Shown: positions 1,194 through 53,968 of the stretch, piece by piece
Numbering within the stretch: position 1 is the first letter of the stretch
Layout of the letters: each line of letters starts with the position of its first letter
From: Chthonomonadaceae bacterium
GTDB taxonomy: Bacteria > Armatimonadota > Chthonomonadetes > Chthonomonadales > Chthonomonadaceae
Length of the DNA stretch: 64,000 nt
Assembly (NCBI GenBank): GCA_025054835.1
Contig: JANWZQ010000056.1
Location: 1 to 64,000 of the forward strand
Reading direction: 5' to 3'
Position numbers and translations under genes: made by a program
Notes under the pieces: generated by a model
Told to the model about the DNA's origin: nothing
What the model saw: the letters and a program-made list of their open reading frames with translations, nothing else
Database searches by the model: none

Positions 1194-2546
1194 ATGCAGT
1201 TTTTCTATGAAGCCGTGGATGCTCAGGGACAGCGGACGGTCGACAAAATGGAAGCGCGCGACGCTATGGAACTCGAGCGGACGCTGGCGCGACGGGGCTA
1301 CCGGGTCGTGAGCGTCGCACCGGTCCCGAACGCGCTGGTTCCTGCAGCAACAGGGCAGACAGGCGCTCTCAAGCCGGAGCCTGCCAGATGGCGCAGGGGC
1401 AACACGTCCTCCCGGGATGTGGCTGTGGTGCTGGCAGGGAACGCAGCCAGCGTAGCACGCGAGGGGCGCTCTCCTGCCGGAGCTGTAGTCCTGGCAGGAC
1501 GTGTGAGCGCACAGGAGCAGATGCTCTTCTTCCAGCAGCTGGCACAACTCGTCCGGAGTGGCATGACCGTCCATGCAGCTCTGGACCATCTGGGGCCACG
1601 TGTCTCCAGCGCGCATCTCTCCCGGGCAGCAGAGCAGATGGCACAGGCCGCACAACGGGGCGAGCGGATTTCCGACGTGATGGCCGCTGCACCGGAAGTC
1701 TTTCCGGAGCATGTGGTCGGTCTGGTGCGCGCCGGTGAGATGGGCGGCTTTCTCGAGATTGCGCTGGACGAGGTGGCGCGCGGGTATGAGCGCAACATTG
1801 CGCTGTACCGGGGGACGTGGTTGCCTCGCATGATGGCCACGCAAGCGTTCTTTCTACTGGCGCTGGCGCTCCCGTTGTTTCCCACGCTCCTGCGCGTATC
1901 AGATACAGGGGTGTGGGATCTGGCGGCCAACCTGCAGGAATACCTGCGCGTGGTCCTCCTGCGAAACCTGCCGGTTGCTGCGGCAGTCTACTATGGCATC
2001 CGGTGGTGTGCTGCCCGGGTGCAGATGCCGTCTCTGAGGCGCGTGCTGGACACATGGGCGTTGCGCGTGCCCCTTTCTGGCGATCTGCAGCGGTACGAGG
2101 CTCTGAGTGGGTTTTTGCAGACGCTGGGCCGGCTGTATCATGCCGGTGTAGCACCGATCCATGCGTGGGAAGGTGCGGCGTGCACTGCAGGCAACACGGT
2201 TCTCCGCGAGCGACTGATCGCTGCAGGCGGACGCGTGCAACAGGGAGCCTCTTTGCCCGAGGCGTTTGCTGCAACCGGCCTGTTCGACCACGCTGTCGAG
2301 CAATTACTGGTTACCGGGCACTACTCCGGACAGGTCGAGAGCGCTCTGGAGAGCGCGGCCGCGCTCTACCGGGCGCAGGCGGAGGAGGCAGCAAAAAGGA
2401 CTCGACTGGCCCTGTTACGCCTCGGGACGCTGGCCCTGCTGCTCTTCGGTGGAGCTGCCGTGCTCTGGATGGCAAAGACCTACTTCAGCGGGATTTTCCA
2501 GATGGTAGAACGGATGTTCCCGGAGGTGTACGGGGGAGAGATGTAA
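1194..2546 (+). CDS. GspF/PilC-like inner-membrane platform protein (first copy)
   Basis: This is a type II secretion/type IV pilus platform protein of the GspF/PilC family, an inner-membrane scaffold for pseudopilus assembly. It opens with the short beta-rich N-terminal module typical of the family (MQFFYEAVDAQG), followed by two T2SSF repeats near residues 105-230 and 300-430, each ending in hydrophobic membrane helices. An ATG at 1182 is in frame, but the conserved N-terminus begins at 1194 and the purine-rich GAGAGG at 1176-1181 abuts 1182 and so cannot serve it. The xylanase stop is only 16 bases upstream. No GspE ATPase, secretin or prepilin peptidase is in the window, so the machine it serves is unknown. 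Confidence 0.85.
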   Translation: MQFFYEAVDAQGQRTVDKMEARDAMELERTLARRGYRVVSVAPVPNALVPAATGQTGALKPEPARWRRGNTSSRDVAVVLAGNAASVAREGRSPAGAVVLAGRVSAQEQMLFFQQLAQLVRSGMTVHAALDHLGPRVSSAHLSRAAEQMAQAAQRGERISDVMAAAPEVFPEHVVGLVRAGEMGGFLEIALDEVARGYERNIALYRGTWLPRMMATQAFFLLALALPLFPTLLRVSDTGVWDLAANLQEYLRVVLLRNLPVAAAVYYGIRWCAARVQMPSLRRVLDTWALRVPLSGDLQRYEALSGFLQTLGRLYHAGVAPIHAWEGAACTAGNTVLRERLIAAGGRVQQGASLPEAFAATGLFDHAVEQLLVTGHYSGQVESALESAAALYRAQAEEAAKRTRLALLRLGTLALLLFGGAAVLWMAKTYFSGIFQMVERMFPEVYGGEM

Positions 2547-2580
2547 GGGGCCCGGATGTGGGACATGGAGGGAGAGACCG

Positions 2581-4107
2581 ATGCCAGAGTACACGTTCAG
2601 CGCAACAGACCGGCTCGGCAATACCGTTACGGGTACGGTCCGTGCTGCGGACCTCCCGGCCGCAGCAGAGCAGGTACGACAGATGGGGTACACGCCCATT
2701 CAGGTACAACCCGCAACGCCGGTTGCTGACAGTGTGCCCGTTGTGTCAGGTGTGGCAGGGAATACCGGTCATACGGTTTCAGGAGCGGCACGTCCTCTGA
2801 TGCCGCTGGCCGGGGAGTGGGTGGAACCGCCTGTATCGAACCGACTGGAGCCGTGGGAGCGTGGCGGTCCGGTACCACAACCCCCTCCACCCCCTGTATC
2901 GCTGAACGCTTCCGGAATGCCCGTTGTGTCGGCGCCCGATGCAGTGCCTTCCATGGCTGCCGTGCAGGCGCCTCCTGTGGCACGCATTCCCTATGGCGCC
3001 GGTCAGGAGGCAGAGAAATCGCTCTGGCAGCGTTTCCTGGAGGCGATGGTCTACCCGATCTATTCAGGGGTTGTGATCAAGGACCTGGCATCTTTCTACC
3101 GGCAGTTTGCCACGTTGATCGATGCCGGGTTGCCCCTGTACCAGGCGCTCGTTGCGCTGGAGGGCAACACGGCCAATCCGAAGTTGAAAGAGGTGGCGCG
3201 CGCAGGACAGCAACAGGTGCAGGCTGGTGGTCAGTTCTCCGATGTGATGTGGGCCTATCGCTGGGCTTTCTCTCCCATGCAGATCGAGCTGGTGCGCGCG
3301 GCAGAGAAAGCGGGCACGCTGGATCAAACGCTCCGACAGATTGCCGATTATATTGAGCACGAGCTGGAGATCCGACAGCTGATCCGTCGGGAGACGTTCT
3401 ACCCGAAGCTGACGTTGTTCATCGCGATCATGATCCTGGGGGCGCCGGGTTTTTCTGGTTCTCTACCCGCCATCGCAGCCCTTGTGCTCGGGAGCATGGG
3501 GCGGACGACGTACTCCGGGGCGAACTATCTGTGGGATACGTTCGGGTTAATGGCCTCGGCGGTGGTGCCCGTTGTGCTGATCGTGGCGGTGTTCCGGATG
3601 TTCCTGTTTCACAAGCAGGGCGTCCGGGAGGCCTACGACGCGATCAAGCTGTCTATCCCGGTGCTGGGGGGGCTGGTGCGCCAATTCGCGCTCGGGCGTT
3701 TTGCCCGTGCGTTTGCGGCGTTGTATCGAGCCGGATTCTCCATGAGTGCGTCACTGGAGATTGCCGGGGACGCCTGTGCCAACGCGGTGGTGCGTGAGGC
3801 CGCATATCGGGCTGCGCGTCGGGCGACGAACGGCGGGTCTGTAGCCGACGCTCTGAGTGCTTCCGGGGTGTTTCCCCCGGTTGCCATCAATCTGTTGCGT
3901 ACAGGCGAGACGTCGGGGAATCTGGACGTGTTGATGGATAAGATGGCTGACTTCTTTGAGGGCGAGGCGAAAACGCGGTCACATCAGGCCGGAATTGCTC
4001 TGGGAGTGCTGGTGTTTCTGATCGTTGCACTGCTGGTCGGGCAGGCAGTCATCGGGCAATATACCGGGTACGCTACAGGAGTGGTGCGCGGCGCGGAGGG
4101 GCCATGA
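2581..4107 (+). CDS. GspF/PilC-like inner-membrane platform protein (second copy, long linker)
   Basis: A second GspF/PilC paralogue follows the first after 34 bases, with a GGAGGGAGAG ribosome site. At 508 aa it is longer than the usual 400. The N-terminal module (MPEYTFSATDRLG) is separated from the membrane core by a proline-rich linker of about 80 residues (roughly 45-125). Two T2SSF domains follow, at about 150-270 and 365-490. The stop codon overlaps the next start as ATGA, so it is translationally coupled to the J-domain protein. Two divergent GspF-like proteins in a row suggest a hetero-oligomeric platform, which is an inference. The family assignment is firm. Confidence 0.88.
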   Translation: MPEYTFSATDRLGNTVTGTVRAADLPAAAEQVRQMGYTPIQVQPATPVADSVPVVSGVAGNTGHTVSGAARPLMPLAGEWVEPPVSNRLEPWERGGPVPQPPPPPVSLNASGMPVVSAPDAVPSMAAVQAPPVARIPYGAGQEAEKSLWQRFLEAMVYPIYSGVVIKDLASFYRQFATLIDAGLPLYQALVALEGNTANPKLKEVARAGQQQVQAGGQFSDVMWAYRWAFSPMQIELVRAAEKAGTLDQTLRQIADYIEHELEIRQLIRRETFYPKLTLFIAIMILGAPGFSGSLPAIAALVLGSMGRTTYSGANYLWDTFGLMASAVVPVVLIVAVFRMFLFHKQGVREAYDAIKLSIPVLGGLVRQFALGRFARAFAALYRAGFSMSASLEIAGDACANAVVREAAYRAARRATNGGSVADALSASGVFPPVAINLLRTGETSGNLDVLMDKMADFFEGEAKTRSHQAGIALGVLVFLIVALLVGQAVIGQYTGYATGVVRGAEGP

Positions 4108-46777: not shown

Positions 46778-48013
46778 TCAATCGTCGCCACTCAGATCGA
46801 AGTTGGAAATCAGAATATCCAGATCGAGCACGTCGATGGCCCCGTCGGCGTTAAAGTCTGCCCCGAAGTTCGCCAGATATTCGTTGGTGCCGATGGAGAC
46901 GTCGAAGCCCCGGATGAGACGGTCGAGATCCAGCACATCCACGATGTTGGAATAATCGGCGTCGCCGGCCTTGAGCAGAGCAGTCAACCCGTGCACATCG
47001 CCGGACGAGGCGTCGATGCCGGTGAGGTTGGTCCCCAGGTAGCGCAGCCCCCGGATGTTCAGGTCGTAGACGCTGGCAGGCACGTTGATGCGGAACGCGC
47101 CATCGGGGCCTACCATGGCGGCTACAGGGTTCATACCAGACGCATCGGTGGGGCGCAGGTTGAAGTTGATGGCCTGCAGGGGCGCGGTGGGGGCGACGTT
47201 CTCCAGCGTCAGCGTGCCGGAGAGGAACACGCCCGGGATCGGGATCGGCCCGGCAGTGGGGCCTCCCAGCGCGGCGATCTCGGCGTCCGACATTGCGTAG
47301 TTCCGCACCTGCAGGTTATTGATGTAACCCTGTGAGGTGTAGAGGCCTGTGGGCTCGGTGAAGAGCAGGAACCAGGGCCACGGGTCCAGCGTGCTGTAGA
47401 GCGCGAAGCGCCCGTCCCGGGCCGCACCGATGCTCTGCACCCAGTTCTGCAGCTGACCATCGATGTAACTGCGGAAGCTGTACGCCTGCGTCAGGTCGAC
47501 GACCAGCGCGATGCGTTGCCATCGGTCGCGCGCGAGGCGCAACGGATTGCCCGCGTCCGAGTAGTCTCCGTTGATCCCGAGACCGCCGCTGCGATTGATA
47601 TACCAGTCTGCGTCGTTGTAGGTGTCGTAGTTGGTGCTGTAGAGCGCGACCCATCCGTTGGGCGTGTTGTTCGGGTTGCCGGTGTCCGAAGGGAACAGCA
47701 CGTCCATGATGATTGTGAACTGGTTGGGGTAGTAGCCTCCTCCGTTACCGGGGATACCGTGGCGTACGATCAGCTTATCGTTGCCGGTCATGGCGGCAAA
47801 GTGAGCGACACGCGCCGGCTGTCCGTTGATGAGCGCGTCCTCGAAGCGCCATGTGCCGTTGACGACCTCCAGCGGCGCACCGATGGTGCCCTCAAAGGTG
47901 TCGTCGAAAGTCCAGTTGCCGGTGACGCTCTGTGCCCGGGCTCCACTGGTCAGTGCAGCAGTCATCGCCGCCAGAGCGCCCAGAAGCGCCATCCATCGTG
48001 TGTTGCCTTGCAT
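46778..48013 (-). CDS. Secreted LamG-like protein with C-terminal dockerin-like domain
   Basis: This 411-aa exported protein has a signal peptide (to ARAQ). A concanavalin/LamG-like beta-sandwich spans about residues 30-250 (NQFTIIMDVLFPS, SFRSYIDGQLQNWVQS, YINNLQVRNYAMSDAEIAALGG). A transthyretin-like region follows, then a dockerin-like pair with GDADYSNIVDVLDLDRLI and DFNADGAIDVLDLDILI, ending NFDLSGDD. The pair resembles the tail of the NHL protein at 30414. It may bind carbohydrate outside the cell. It lies 129 bases downstream of the phosphoesterase gene and could be the last gene of that unit. Confidence 0.85.
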   Translation of the reverse strand: MQGNTRWMALLGALAAMTAALTSGARAQSVTGNWTFDDTFEGTIGAPLEVVNGTWRFEDALINGQPARVAHFAAMTGNDKLIVRHGIPGNGGGYYPNQFTIIMDVLFPSDTGNPNNTPNGWVALYSTNYDTYNDADWYINRSGGLGINGDYSDAGNPLRLARDRWQRIALVVDLTQAYSFRSYIDGQLQNWVQSIGAARDGRFALYSTLDPWPWFLLFTEPTGLYTSQGYINNLQVRNYAMSDAEIAALGGPTAGPIPIPGVFLSGTLTLENVAPTAPLQAINFNLRPTDASGMNPVAAMVGPDGAFRINVPASVYDLNIRGLRYLGTNLTGIDASSGDVHGLTALLKAGDADYSNIVDVLDLDRLIRGFDVSIGTNEYLANFGADFNADGAIDVLDLDILISNFDLSGDD

Positions 48014-48142
48014 GATTTGTTGCCTCTATCGCGATCGCGCTGGTAGTAAGGAGGCACACGACAGCGCGCGGAACTGCCGTGTGCCGGGCCCGATGCGGTC
48101 ATCGCCGCAGGGATATGGAGCCTGCGCCTGCCTCACCGGCGA

Positions 48143-50737: not shown

Positions 50738-50760
50738 AATGCGTTATCCTGTCAGGGCAT

Positions 50761-50797
50761 GAGACAGCACGCCCGCTCAGAGGTGGCGTGCTGTCTC
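50761..50797 (-). terminator. Perfect 13-bp hairpin after the second prepilin gene (no U-tract)
   Basis: GAGACAGCACGCC/GGCGTGCTGTCTC with an 11-base loop, 38 bases after the stop at 50836 and just ahead of the phosphoesterase start. The downstream tail has no T-run, so it may be a processing or stabilising hairpin. Confidence 0.45.
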
Positions 50798-50835
50798 CCA
50801 CGGCATTGCGTGCATGCACAACAGGAAGTGCCGAG

Positions 50836-51693
50836 CTAGAATACTCGCAACCCGCCAGTGCCGTTGGGATAGTAGGGATACATCCACATGCCCCGGCTGG
50901 CCCAGATCTGAATGTTTCGTCGCTGCCCGGCAGAGTCCTGCTCTCGCATTTCGAACCACTTGGCATGTCCGTCGGCGAAGGCCAGGTTGTCGCCATTCTT
51001 GTGGCGCAGTCGCGGGCGGATCTTGTTGTAGAAGTCGGGCAGCTCGATGGTCACATACACGCATCCCCAGGTTGCGCCGTAGGGGGGCACAGATCCGGAG
51101 TGGAAGTGCGTGATGACATTAGCCGGTTGCGCAAGCGCAGCCTGGGTGAGCGGCGCCCCGAAGGTGGTGCCATCGGGTACACGATAGTAGTCCCCGAAGG
51201 GATACGAGTCATCGGCGCCGAGCCAGTAGTTGTAGGCGTAGTGATTGGTCATGCGCTGCCCGTTGAAGGGAGTACACTCCCCGCCACCATTGAACGTGCG
51301 GTCCATGGAGGGGCACTGGAAGAGGTCACGGTTCCTGATGTAGGGCAGGAGGTTAAGCGACCAGCCGTTGACCGGCTTCTCGGCGGTGACCCGGGTGACC
51401 GGATCGGTCGTGGTGCGGGTCATCTGGTCCGGGCGCAGGCCGGGCACCCACGGCTTCTCTGCAGTTCCCCCAACCGGGACAAAGGTCTCGTCGTAGTCCT
51501 GCAGATACATCATGGTGGCGGTACCGATCTGCTTGAGGTTAGAGAGGCAGGTCGTCTGCCGTGCGGACTCGCGGGCCTGCGCGAACACGGGGAAGAGAAT
51601 TGCGGCCAGGATCGCGATAATGGCGATCACAACGAGCAGTTCGATAAGTGTGAACGCGGCACGTGCCCGGAGAGGCGTGTGATTCGTTTGCAT
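50836..51693 (-). CDS. DUF1559 prepilin-like secreted protein (copy 2)
   Basis: This type IV pilin/pseudopilin-like protein has a short leader ending in R-A-A, then [33 protein letters not shown], of which FTLIELL is the prepilin peptidase site and methylated Phe. The C-terminal domain is DUF1559, closing with [17 protein letters not shown], the H-x-DG signature of the family. The start at 51693 follows AGGAGGAATTC; the frame reaches 51726. It is a tandem paralogue of the gene at 51786. Such proteins abound in Planctomycetes, Armatimonadota and relatives, with unknown roles. Confidence 0.9.
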
Positions 51694-51735
51694 GAATTCC
51701 TCCTGAGAAATGTACAGCAGTGACATGGTGATGGG

Positions 51736-51770
51736 CGCTCACAGCAACGCAGGGCGCGTTGCTGTGAGCG
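51736..51770 (-). terminator. Perfect 15-bp hairpin between the two prepilin genes (no U-tract)
   Basis: CGCTCACAGCAACGC/GCGTTGCTGTGAGCG with a 5-base loop, 15 bases after the stop at 51786. The tail CCATCACC on the minus strand has no T-run. Confidence 0.45.
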
Positions 51771-51785
51771 GGGAGCGTGAAGCGA

Positions 51786-52778: not shown

Positions 52779-52833
52779 ATTATACTGCGGCTCTGTTTAA
52801 GAGATTATTAAAGACCTGTTAAATTAAGGTTAA
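52779..52833 (-). promoter_or_regulatory. Pho-box-like promoter: four 11-bp-spaced TTAA hexamers plus TATAAT
   Basis: On the minus strand TTAACC (52833-52828), TTAACA (52822-52817), TTAATA (52811-52806) and TTAAAC (52800-52795) recur exactly every 11 bp. Ten bases after the last is a perfect TATAAT (52784-52779) without any -35. This matches the Pho-box layout of PhoB/PhoP/SphR activators: direct repeats of 11-bp period replacing the -35 and ending about 10 bp before the -10. The repeats also resemble the cyanobacterial PyTTAAPyPyT/A box. It drives the prepilin/phosphoesterase genes; the regulator is not in the window. Confidence 0.65.
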
Positions 52834-52870: not shown

Positions 52871-53968
52871 TCAAAACTCTGACAGGCGCGCGGTACCGAC
52901 CTCAGTACCGTCCGGGCGGACACGCAGGGAGCCAAAACGCAGGATACATGCCGCTGCCGGAGCGCGCACCGGGGTGACGATACCCAGAGTGCGCCGCCGG
53001 AAGTCAAGAGCCTCCAGACAGCCGATCCCGAGCAACTTGCCACTGGAGCTCTCCAGCCCGATCAGCAGATGGTGCAGTTGCGGAGCTGTGGTGATGCAGA
53101 AGGACTGCGCGTGCAACTCCTTCTGAACGATGCTCAACGCGGGCAGTTGCGGGGACACCGGAGAGCCGACCATCAAACCGAGTTGCTGGCCACAGAGTTC
53201 GGCGTAATACACCCGGATCTGTGGGGCGAGAACCTGTCGTACGAAAGCGAGTTGATGCGCTGCCAGTGGGGTTCCACTGCCAAGCCACAGGCCACAGCAG
53301 GCAACCGCATCGAAAGAGTAGGTGTGCATGCGGGCATTCTGGAGGTAGGCTGCAAAGCGCATGACCCGCCGTTGCGCACGATATGCAGGGGGCTTTCTAC
53401 TCAGGACATCCGGGATGGGAGGAGCGAAGATGTGGTAACCGGTGTAGTGCCGGAATGGCGCGAGAACGGGTTCCAGCTCGCTATTGCGTTGCAGTGCCAC
53501 GATCGTACAGGGGCCGAGCAGCTCCAGACAGGCCTGATGTAGCCGGAGCGCGCCCCGGCCATGTATGTAGCCCGGAGTGTCCACTATCAGCGGAGATCCC
53601 GGTTGTTCGCGCACCGCCTGCCGGTACAGGCGATGCAGGGCGCACACGTACTCCAGCGTATGCCCTCTGGGGCTGGCACTGCCGACGAATGCGAGTGCGT
53701 GCGGCGAGAGATCCGACAGGGCCAGAACGGGCGTCTGCGTGTATGCCAGCCCGATGCAGGTTGGAGGTCCGATCTCCGACTGCCCGATGTCGGCGTCCAG
53801 AACGCCGACGCGGTATCCGGCCTCTGTCCAGTAACGGATCAACAGACGCGTGAAAGTCGTCTTGCCGGTATCTGTGTCGCCGAGCAGCACGACGGTGCCG
53901 GGCGCTCTGGCCAGTTCCTCCAGAGCTTCCCGCCAGAGAGCGTAGTCGTTTTCCAGAGGGGTGGTCAT
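52871..53968 (-). CDS. Clp1/Grc3-type P-loop polynucleotide kinase-like protein
   Basis: A 365-aa P-loop protein related to the eukaryotic and archaeal Clp1/Grc3 RNA 5'-kinases. Walker A reads GDTDTGKTTF (about residues 30-39). The family blocks YRVGVLDADIGQSEIGPPT and IVDTPGYIHGRGALRLHQ follow, and a C-terminal beta-rich region completes it. The upstream DUF2993 stop overlaps its ATG by one base, so the two are coupled. Bacterial members are poorly studied; RNA or DNA 5'-phosphorylation is the family activity, but this protein may have another nucleotide-dependent role. Confidence 0.85.
   Translation of the reverse strand: MTTPLENDYALWREALEELARAPGTVVLLGDTDTGKTTFTRLLIRYWTEAGYRVGVLDADIGQSEIGPPTCIGLAYTQTPVLALSDLSPHALAFVGSASPRGHTLEYVCALHRLYRQAVREQPGSPLIVDTPGYIHGRGALRLHQACLELLGPCTIVALQRNSELEPVLAPFRHYTGYHIFAPPIPDVLSRKPPAYRAQRRVMRFAAYLQNARMHTYSFDAVACCGLWLGSGTPLAAHQLAFVRQVLAPQIRVYYAELCGQQLGLMVGSPVSPQLPALSIVQKELHAQSFCITTAPQLHHLLIGLESSSGKLLGIGCLEALDFRRRTLGIVTPVRAPAAACILRFGSLRVRPDGTEVGTARLSEF

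Follow-up and report, generated by a model that had tools for sequence, protein, structure and literature searches.

The question raised by this locus is whether a promoter element upstream of two tandem DUF1559 prepilin genes is a Pho box, and whether it ties these prepilins to the phosphoesterase encoded behind them. In the 64,000-nucleotide stretch of DNA analysed here (the window), the initial annotation had described four hexamers repeated with an exact 11-bp period on the minus strand, followed ten bases on by a perfect TATAAT without a -35 element. The sequence coordinates bear this out, and a promoter scan found no -35 paired with this TATAAT (Table 1). The annotated gene order (DUF1559, DUF1559, YVTN/phosphoesterase, LamG-dockerin) likewise holds, with all genes on the minus strand and a weak dockerin match.

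Table 1. Coordinates of the promoter element and the operon downstream of it in the window
Feature	Position	Strand	Evidence or remark
Putative Pho box, four TTAA hexamers with 11-bp spacing	52795..52833	(-)	sequence, shuffles, pstS-promoter matrix
Hexamer TTAACC	52833-52828	(-)	
Hexamer TTAACA	52822-52817	(-)	
Hexamer TTAATA	52811-52806	(-)	
Hexamer TTAAAC	52800-52795	(-)	
10-base gap between TTAAAC and TATAAT	52794-52785	(-)	
-10 element TATAAT	52779..52784	(-)	10 nt beyond last hexamer, no -35
DUF1559a prepilin, 291 aa	51786..52661	(-)	PF07596 and PF07963 over cut-off
Spacer with hairpin	51727-51785		
DUF1559b prepilin, 296 aa, the phosphoesterase's conserved partner	50836..51726	(-)	PF07596 and PF07963 over cut-off
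Spacer with hairpin	50738-50835		
Exported beta-propeller/PF04185 phosphoesterase, 864 aa	48143..50737	(-)	PF04185 54.7 bits, lactonase-type propeller
Spacer with hairpin	48014-48142		
LamG protein, weak dockerin match	46778..48013	(-)	sub-threshold PF13385 and PF00404

A three-unit version of the pattern, allowing up to two mismatches, is found at a single place in the window, as two overlapping registers, and none of 100 dinucleotide shuffles yields it. The assembly from which the window comes (G000; 3.7 Mb, 202 contigs, estimated 97% complete) contains the exact three-unit pattern at 17 places, compared to none for a reversed-pattern control, and all 16 family relatives have matches. TTAA is short and palindromic, as might be expected of a chance AT-rich repeat without any regulatory role, but the shuffle, control and relatives' counts make this explanation untenable, with a practically negligible probability. 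When the pattern was made directional and required two units with a -10 element, 13 distinct sites were identified in the genome (15 rows, two pairs overlapping) versus none for the control, in a genome-wide target list that covers the patterns searched and the stretches around the matches. The box-to--10 spacing of the window recurs at boxes throughout this genome and in its relatives.

Pho boxes comprise at least two direct repeats with an 11-nt period, replace the -35 element about 10 nt upstream of the -10, and precede pst and other phosphorus genes. The window element has four exact units, the starts of which are exactly 11 bp apart, and lies 10 nt from its TATAAT. After locating the PstS profile PF12849 in 80 relatives, we found that pstS is preceded by a box and a -10 element in 13 of 15 family relatives examined, including G008, whose genome has no exact three-unit box other than the one at pstS; in the family members G006 and G010, no box is present within 600 bp of pstS. 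Outside the family, a box is located just upstream of pstS in G027 and G034 and approximately 2 kb upstream in G022, G023, G025, and G026, while G017, G020, and G068 have none directly upstream of this gene. The Pho-box identity proposed in the initial annotation is thus upheld, as family relatives carry the same repeat and -10 before pstS. The search of related genomes that it had suggested recovered the repeat upstream of both pstS and the orthologous DUF1559/phosphoesterase genes.

When scored with a matrix trained on 13 family pstS promoters, none of them from the genome under study, the window site reaches 26.6 bits. The training sites themselves obtain 27 to 41 when each is left out in turn. 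No unrelated position in the window exceeds -1.9, and unrelated contigs totalling 0.99 Mb (both strands counted) yield at most 11.7. TTAA repeats with an 11-bp period also come in a second class, which keeps the spacing to the -10 element but is built of TTTAAG units that look like the first class read backwards (G000 C163:68248, C163:81856, and C38:13391; L250, L270, L275, L277, L280, L284, and L247). These boxes may serve another regulator; the genes behind them include one for a conserved TPR protein (IANRASGPP). Such a class with the same period before non-phosphorus genes in relatives would fit the window repeat being the site of a different OmpR-family regulator, either CopR-like, as encoded in this genome on contig C177, or an ArcA-like redox regulator, with a merely coincidental link to phosphorus; ArcA is likewise reported to use direct repeats (PMC3798270). 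However, the window box scores only 9.2 with the second-class matrix, far from its value with the pstS matrix, and boxes of its type sit before pstS, phytase, and glycerophosphodiester phosphodiesterase (GDPD) genes, rendering this alternative very unlikely.

In the genome under study, boxes precede a GDPD gene (C150), an operon on C74 that encodes a GlpT/PgtP-like transporter, an HpnW-type oxidoreductase, a PF04185 phosphoesterase and a PhnX-like hydrolase, and, on C84, a DUF1559 gene with a phytase gene behind it. Phytases and GlpQ-type diesterases both count among the common phosphate-starvation enzymes (PMC4415409). With the three-unit pstS matrix, the C74 and C150 boxes, which have two perfect units each, reach modest scores of 10.3 and 7.8, respectively, and are therefore assigned on the basis of their pattern, -10 element and gene functions. 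Boxes are also found in other contexts. A GntR-type regulator lies behind the box on C73 (L018), and after it come a DUF1559 gene and a sulfatase; a second GntR-type regulator lies behind a box at L289 (G005). At C138:38378-38420 (G000), a box with a perfect TATAAT is aimed into the gap between convergent genes, where it might drive a small RNA.

The genome encodes two OmpR/PhoB-type regulators, and one large protein has a weak match. The first regulator, on C47, is PhoB/YycF-like, has RegX3 as its best solved relative and adjoins a PnpS/PhoR-like kinase, forming the single such pair in the genome. As its scores fall below the equivalog cut-offs, its assignment to the PhoB type is probable, but not proven. 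The second, on C177, is the CopR-like protein. The PstS, PhoU, and PiT profiles had no match in the assembly, and no ATPase reached the cut-off for PstB. Because pst and phoU tend to lie together in genomes, one gap in the assembly could account for the missing pst and phoU matches. A Pho regulon is evident in this genome although PstS, PhoU, and PiT are unmatched.

Turning to the operon itself, both DUF1559 proteins combine the family domain with the N-terminal methylation motif of prepilins. The PF04185 score of the phosphoesterase is well above the cut-off of 23, and its N-terminus is signal-peptide-like by inspection. Orthologs of DUF1559a in G016 and G027 (79%-86% identity) are boxed. At seven other loci (L107, L096, L161, L098, L090, L091, and L095), the gene immediately before the same phosphoesterase is a DUF1559b ortholog (51%-82% identity), with a clear box at six of these and a weak one in L090. 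The pstS matrix, trained on the family, gives low scores to three of the boxes (L096, 3.3; L098, 3.4; L095, 7.9) despite 11 of 12 core matches, and the box evidence at these loci therefore consists of core and spacing alone. Across phyla, 7 of the 48 loci that could be tested showed the prepilin-phosphoesterase pairing, and none of the seven is recognisable as Verrucomicrobia or Planctomycetota; many of the named phosphoesterase relatives, as well as the named prepilin-pair loci, belong to the Armatimonadota. Just upstream of the operon, the same strand encodes a bacterial protein with a CLP1-type P-loop (52871-53968; PF16575, 119.5 bits).

The LamG gene is possibly the last gene of the operon. 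At eight Verrucomicrobia loci (L111, L115, L116, L117, L120, L121, L128, and L110), a region homologous to the LamG protein is fused to the phosphoesterase in one polypeptide, which supports a functional link between the two, although the LamG gene can be placed in the operon only tentatively. Dockerin type I matches, some weak and some clear, are likewise found in several other secreted proteins near boxes (L017:4709-6358, L020:3792-5102, L021:8002-9234, and L028:4262-6124).

Strong GC-rich hairpins of 13-15 bp without a U-tract fill all three spacers of the window operon, and hairpins, mostly lacking a U-tract as well, are found 3' of DUF1559b in L107, L161, L096, L098, L091, and L095. They could set the relative expression of the genes, or might uncouple them. 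In the latter case, a real Pho box could drive the prepilins alone, with the phosphoesterase and LamG genes cut off by the hairpins and expressed otherwise, and there would be no phosphate-acquisition unit. We consider this unlikely, although every operon spacer does contain such a hairpin: on the minus strand, neither a terminator nor a further promoter ahead of the phosphoesterase was called, and the order of DUF1559b and phosphoesterase is conserved. The predicted co-regulation of the prepilins and the phosphoesterase is well supported.

How far this extends to the DUF1559 family can be judged from its other members. The genome has 43 PF07596 matches. Among the 33 DUF1559 genes examined, seven have a three-unit box with at least 11 of 12 matches (a control tetramer reached no more than 9), and the number of boxed genes rises to 10 once two-unit boxes with a -10 element are included. 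DUF1559 is the first gene at 5 of the 13 two-unit sites with a -10 (hypergeometric probability ~4e-7, assuming 3200 genes). In the family relatives, a prepilin lies behind 18 of the 48 boxes with a nearby gene and PstS behind six; as genes were called by a simple codon-usage script, the first-gene assignment is approximate at some of these sites. DUF1559 prepilins are the commonest recognisable box target. As some of the prepilin sites in relatives are second-class boxes, not all of them are necessarily under Pho control. The boxed paralogs are scattered over the DUF1559 tree, and a single Pho-specific subfamily was not supported, with eight label changes compared to a shuffled mean of 8.7 in a poorly resolved tree. 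Of the proposal that DUF1559 prepilins belong to an extracellular phosphate-acquisition system, what stands is the co-regulation of a subset (about 10 of 33 boxed), and not its extension to the family as a whole.

Taken together, the box, its likeness to the relatives' pstS promoters, the wider set of phosphorus genes and the conserved order of box, DUF1559b and phosphoesterase indicate that the element is very likely a genuine Pho box that switches on the operon at phosphate limitation. At low phosphate, the PhoB-like C47 regulator would bind the 11-bp repeats, and the bound PhoB/PhoP-type response regulator would substitute for the -35 element, so that transcription begins at the TATAAT. This would switch on DUF1559a, DUF1559b and the exported phosphoesterase, possibly together with the LamG protein, and the enzyme is predicted to free phosphate outside the cytoplasm. 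The two prepilins may be processed and assembled by one of the type IV-filament/type II-like machines of the genome, whose T2SSF/PilC platform genes lie outside the operon, two of them consecutively at 1527-4056 (+) of the window. By analogy with Hxc/LapA, the assembled prepilins might, as dedicated (pseudo)pilins, aid the export or display of the phosphoesterase, a role to which we give slightly less than an even chance. More speculative, and rather doubtful, is the view that DUF1559 prepilins act as interchangeable pseudopilins with one cargo each: every paralog would be paired with a single exported enzyme (phosphoesterase, phytase, or sulfatase) under the regulator of the matching nutrient, and would load that enzyme onto a filament or secretion machine used in common. 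If true, it would account for the tens of DUF1559 paralogs per genome.

Compared to known systems, the element shares the 11-nt direct-repeat period, core letters and target-gene classes with SphR, PhoB, and PhoP boxes. The cyanobacterial SphR Pho box consists of three CTTAACCT units with 3-bp linkers (PMC1906773), and in E. coli, 10 bp separate the PhoB box from the -10 element downstream of it (PMC4415409). It differs from these in its Armatimonadota host, its consensus (~cTTAA(C/T)annnnc), the prominence of DUF1559 prepilins among the targets, and its candidate regulator. No paper came up in a literature search that combined "Pho box" with Armatimonadota, and our analysis supplies a Pho-box model for part of this phylum.

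In Pseudomonas aeruginosa, phosphate limitation induces secretion parts and an exported phosphatase, the Hxc type II secretion system and LapA (PMC9769906). The window operon similarly places putative secretion parts alongside a predicted exported phosphatase-type enzyme. In contrast to Hxc/LapA, however, it comprises prepilins and an enzyme and has no dedicated assembly machine genes at the locus, the platform genes being located elsewhere; its prepilins are of the DUF1559 type and its enzyme is a beta-propeller/PF04185 protein. Finally, the Planctomycetota DUF1559 proteins share the PF07596 domain, the many paralogs per genome, and, as far as the DUF1559 passages of PMC10632474 and PMC2754498 go, the lack of a known role. 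They form one of the largest paralog families of that phylum, with 68 copies in Planctopirus limnophila, as stated in the passages on this family in PMC10632474. The DUF1559 passages of both papers treat paralog number, essentiality and stress transcription and do not refer to phosphate. Tying a defined DUF1559 subset to the phosphate-starvation response, together with the conserved prepilin-phosphoesterase pair, would thus provide a first testable role for these proteins.
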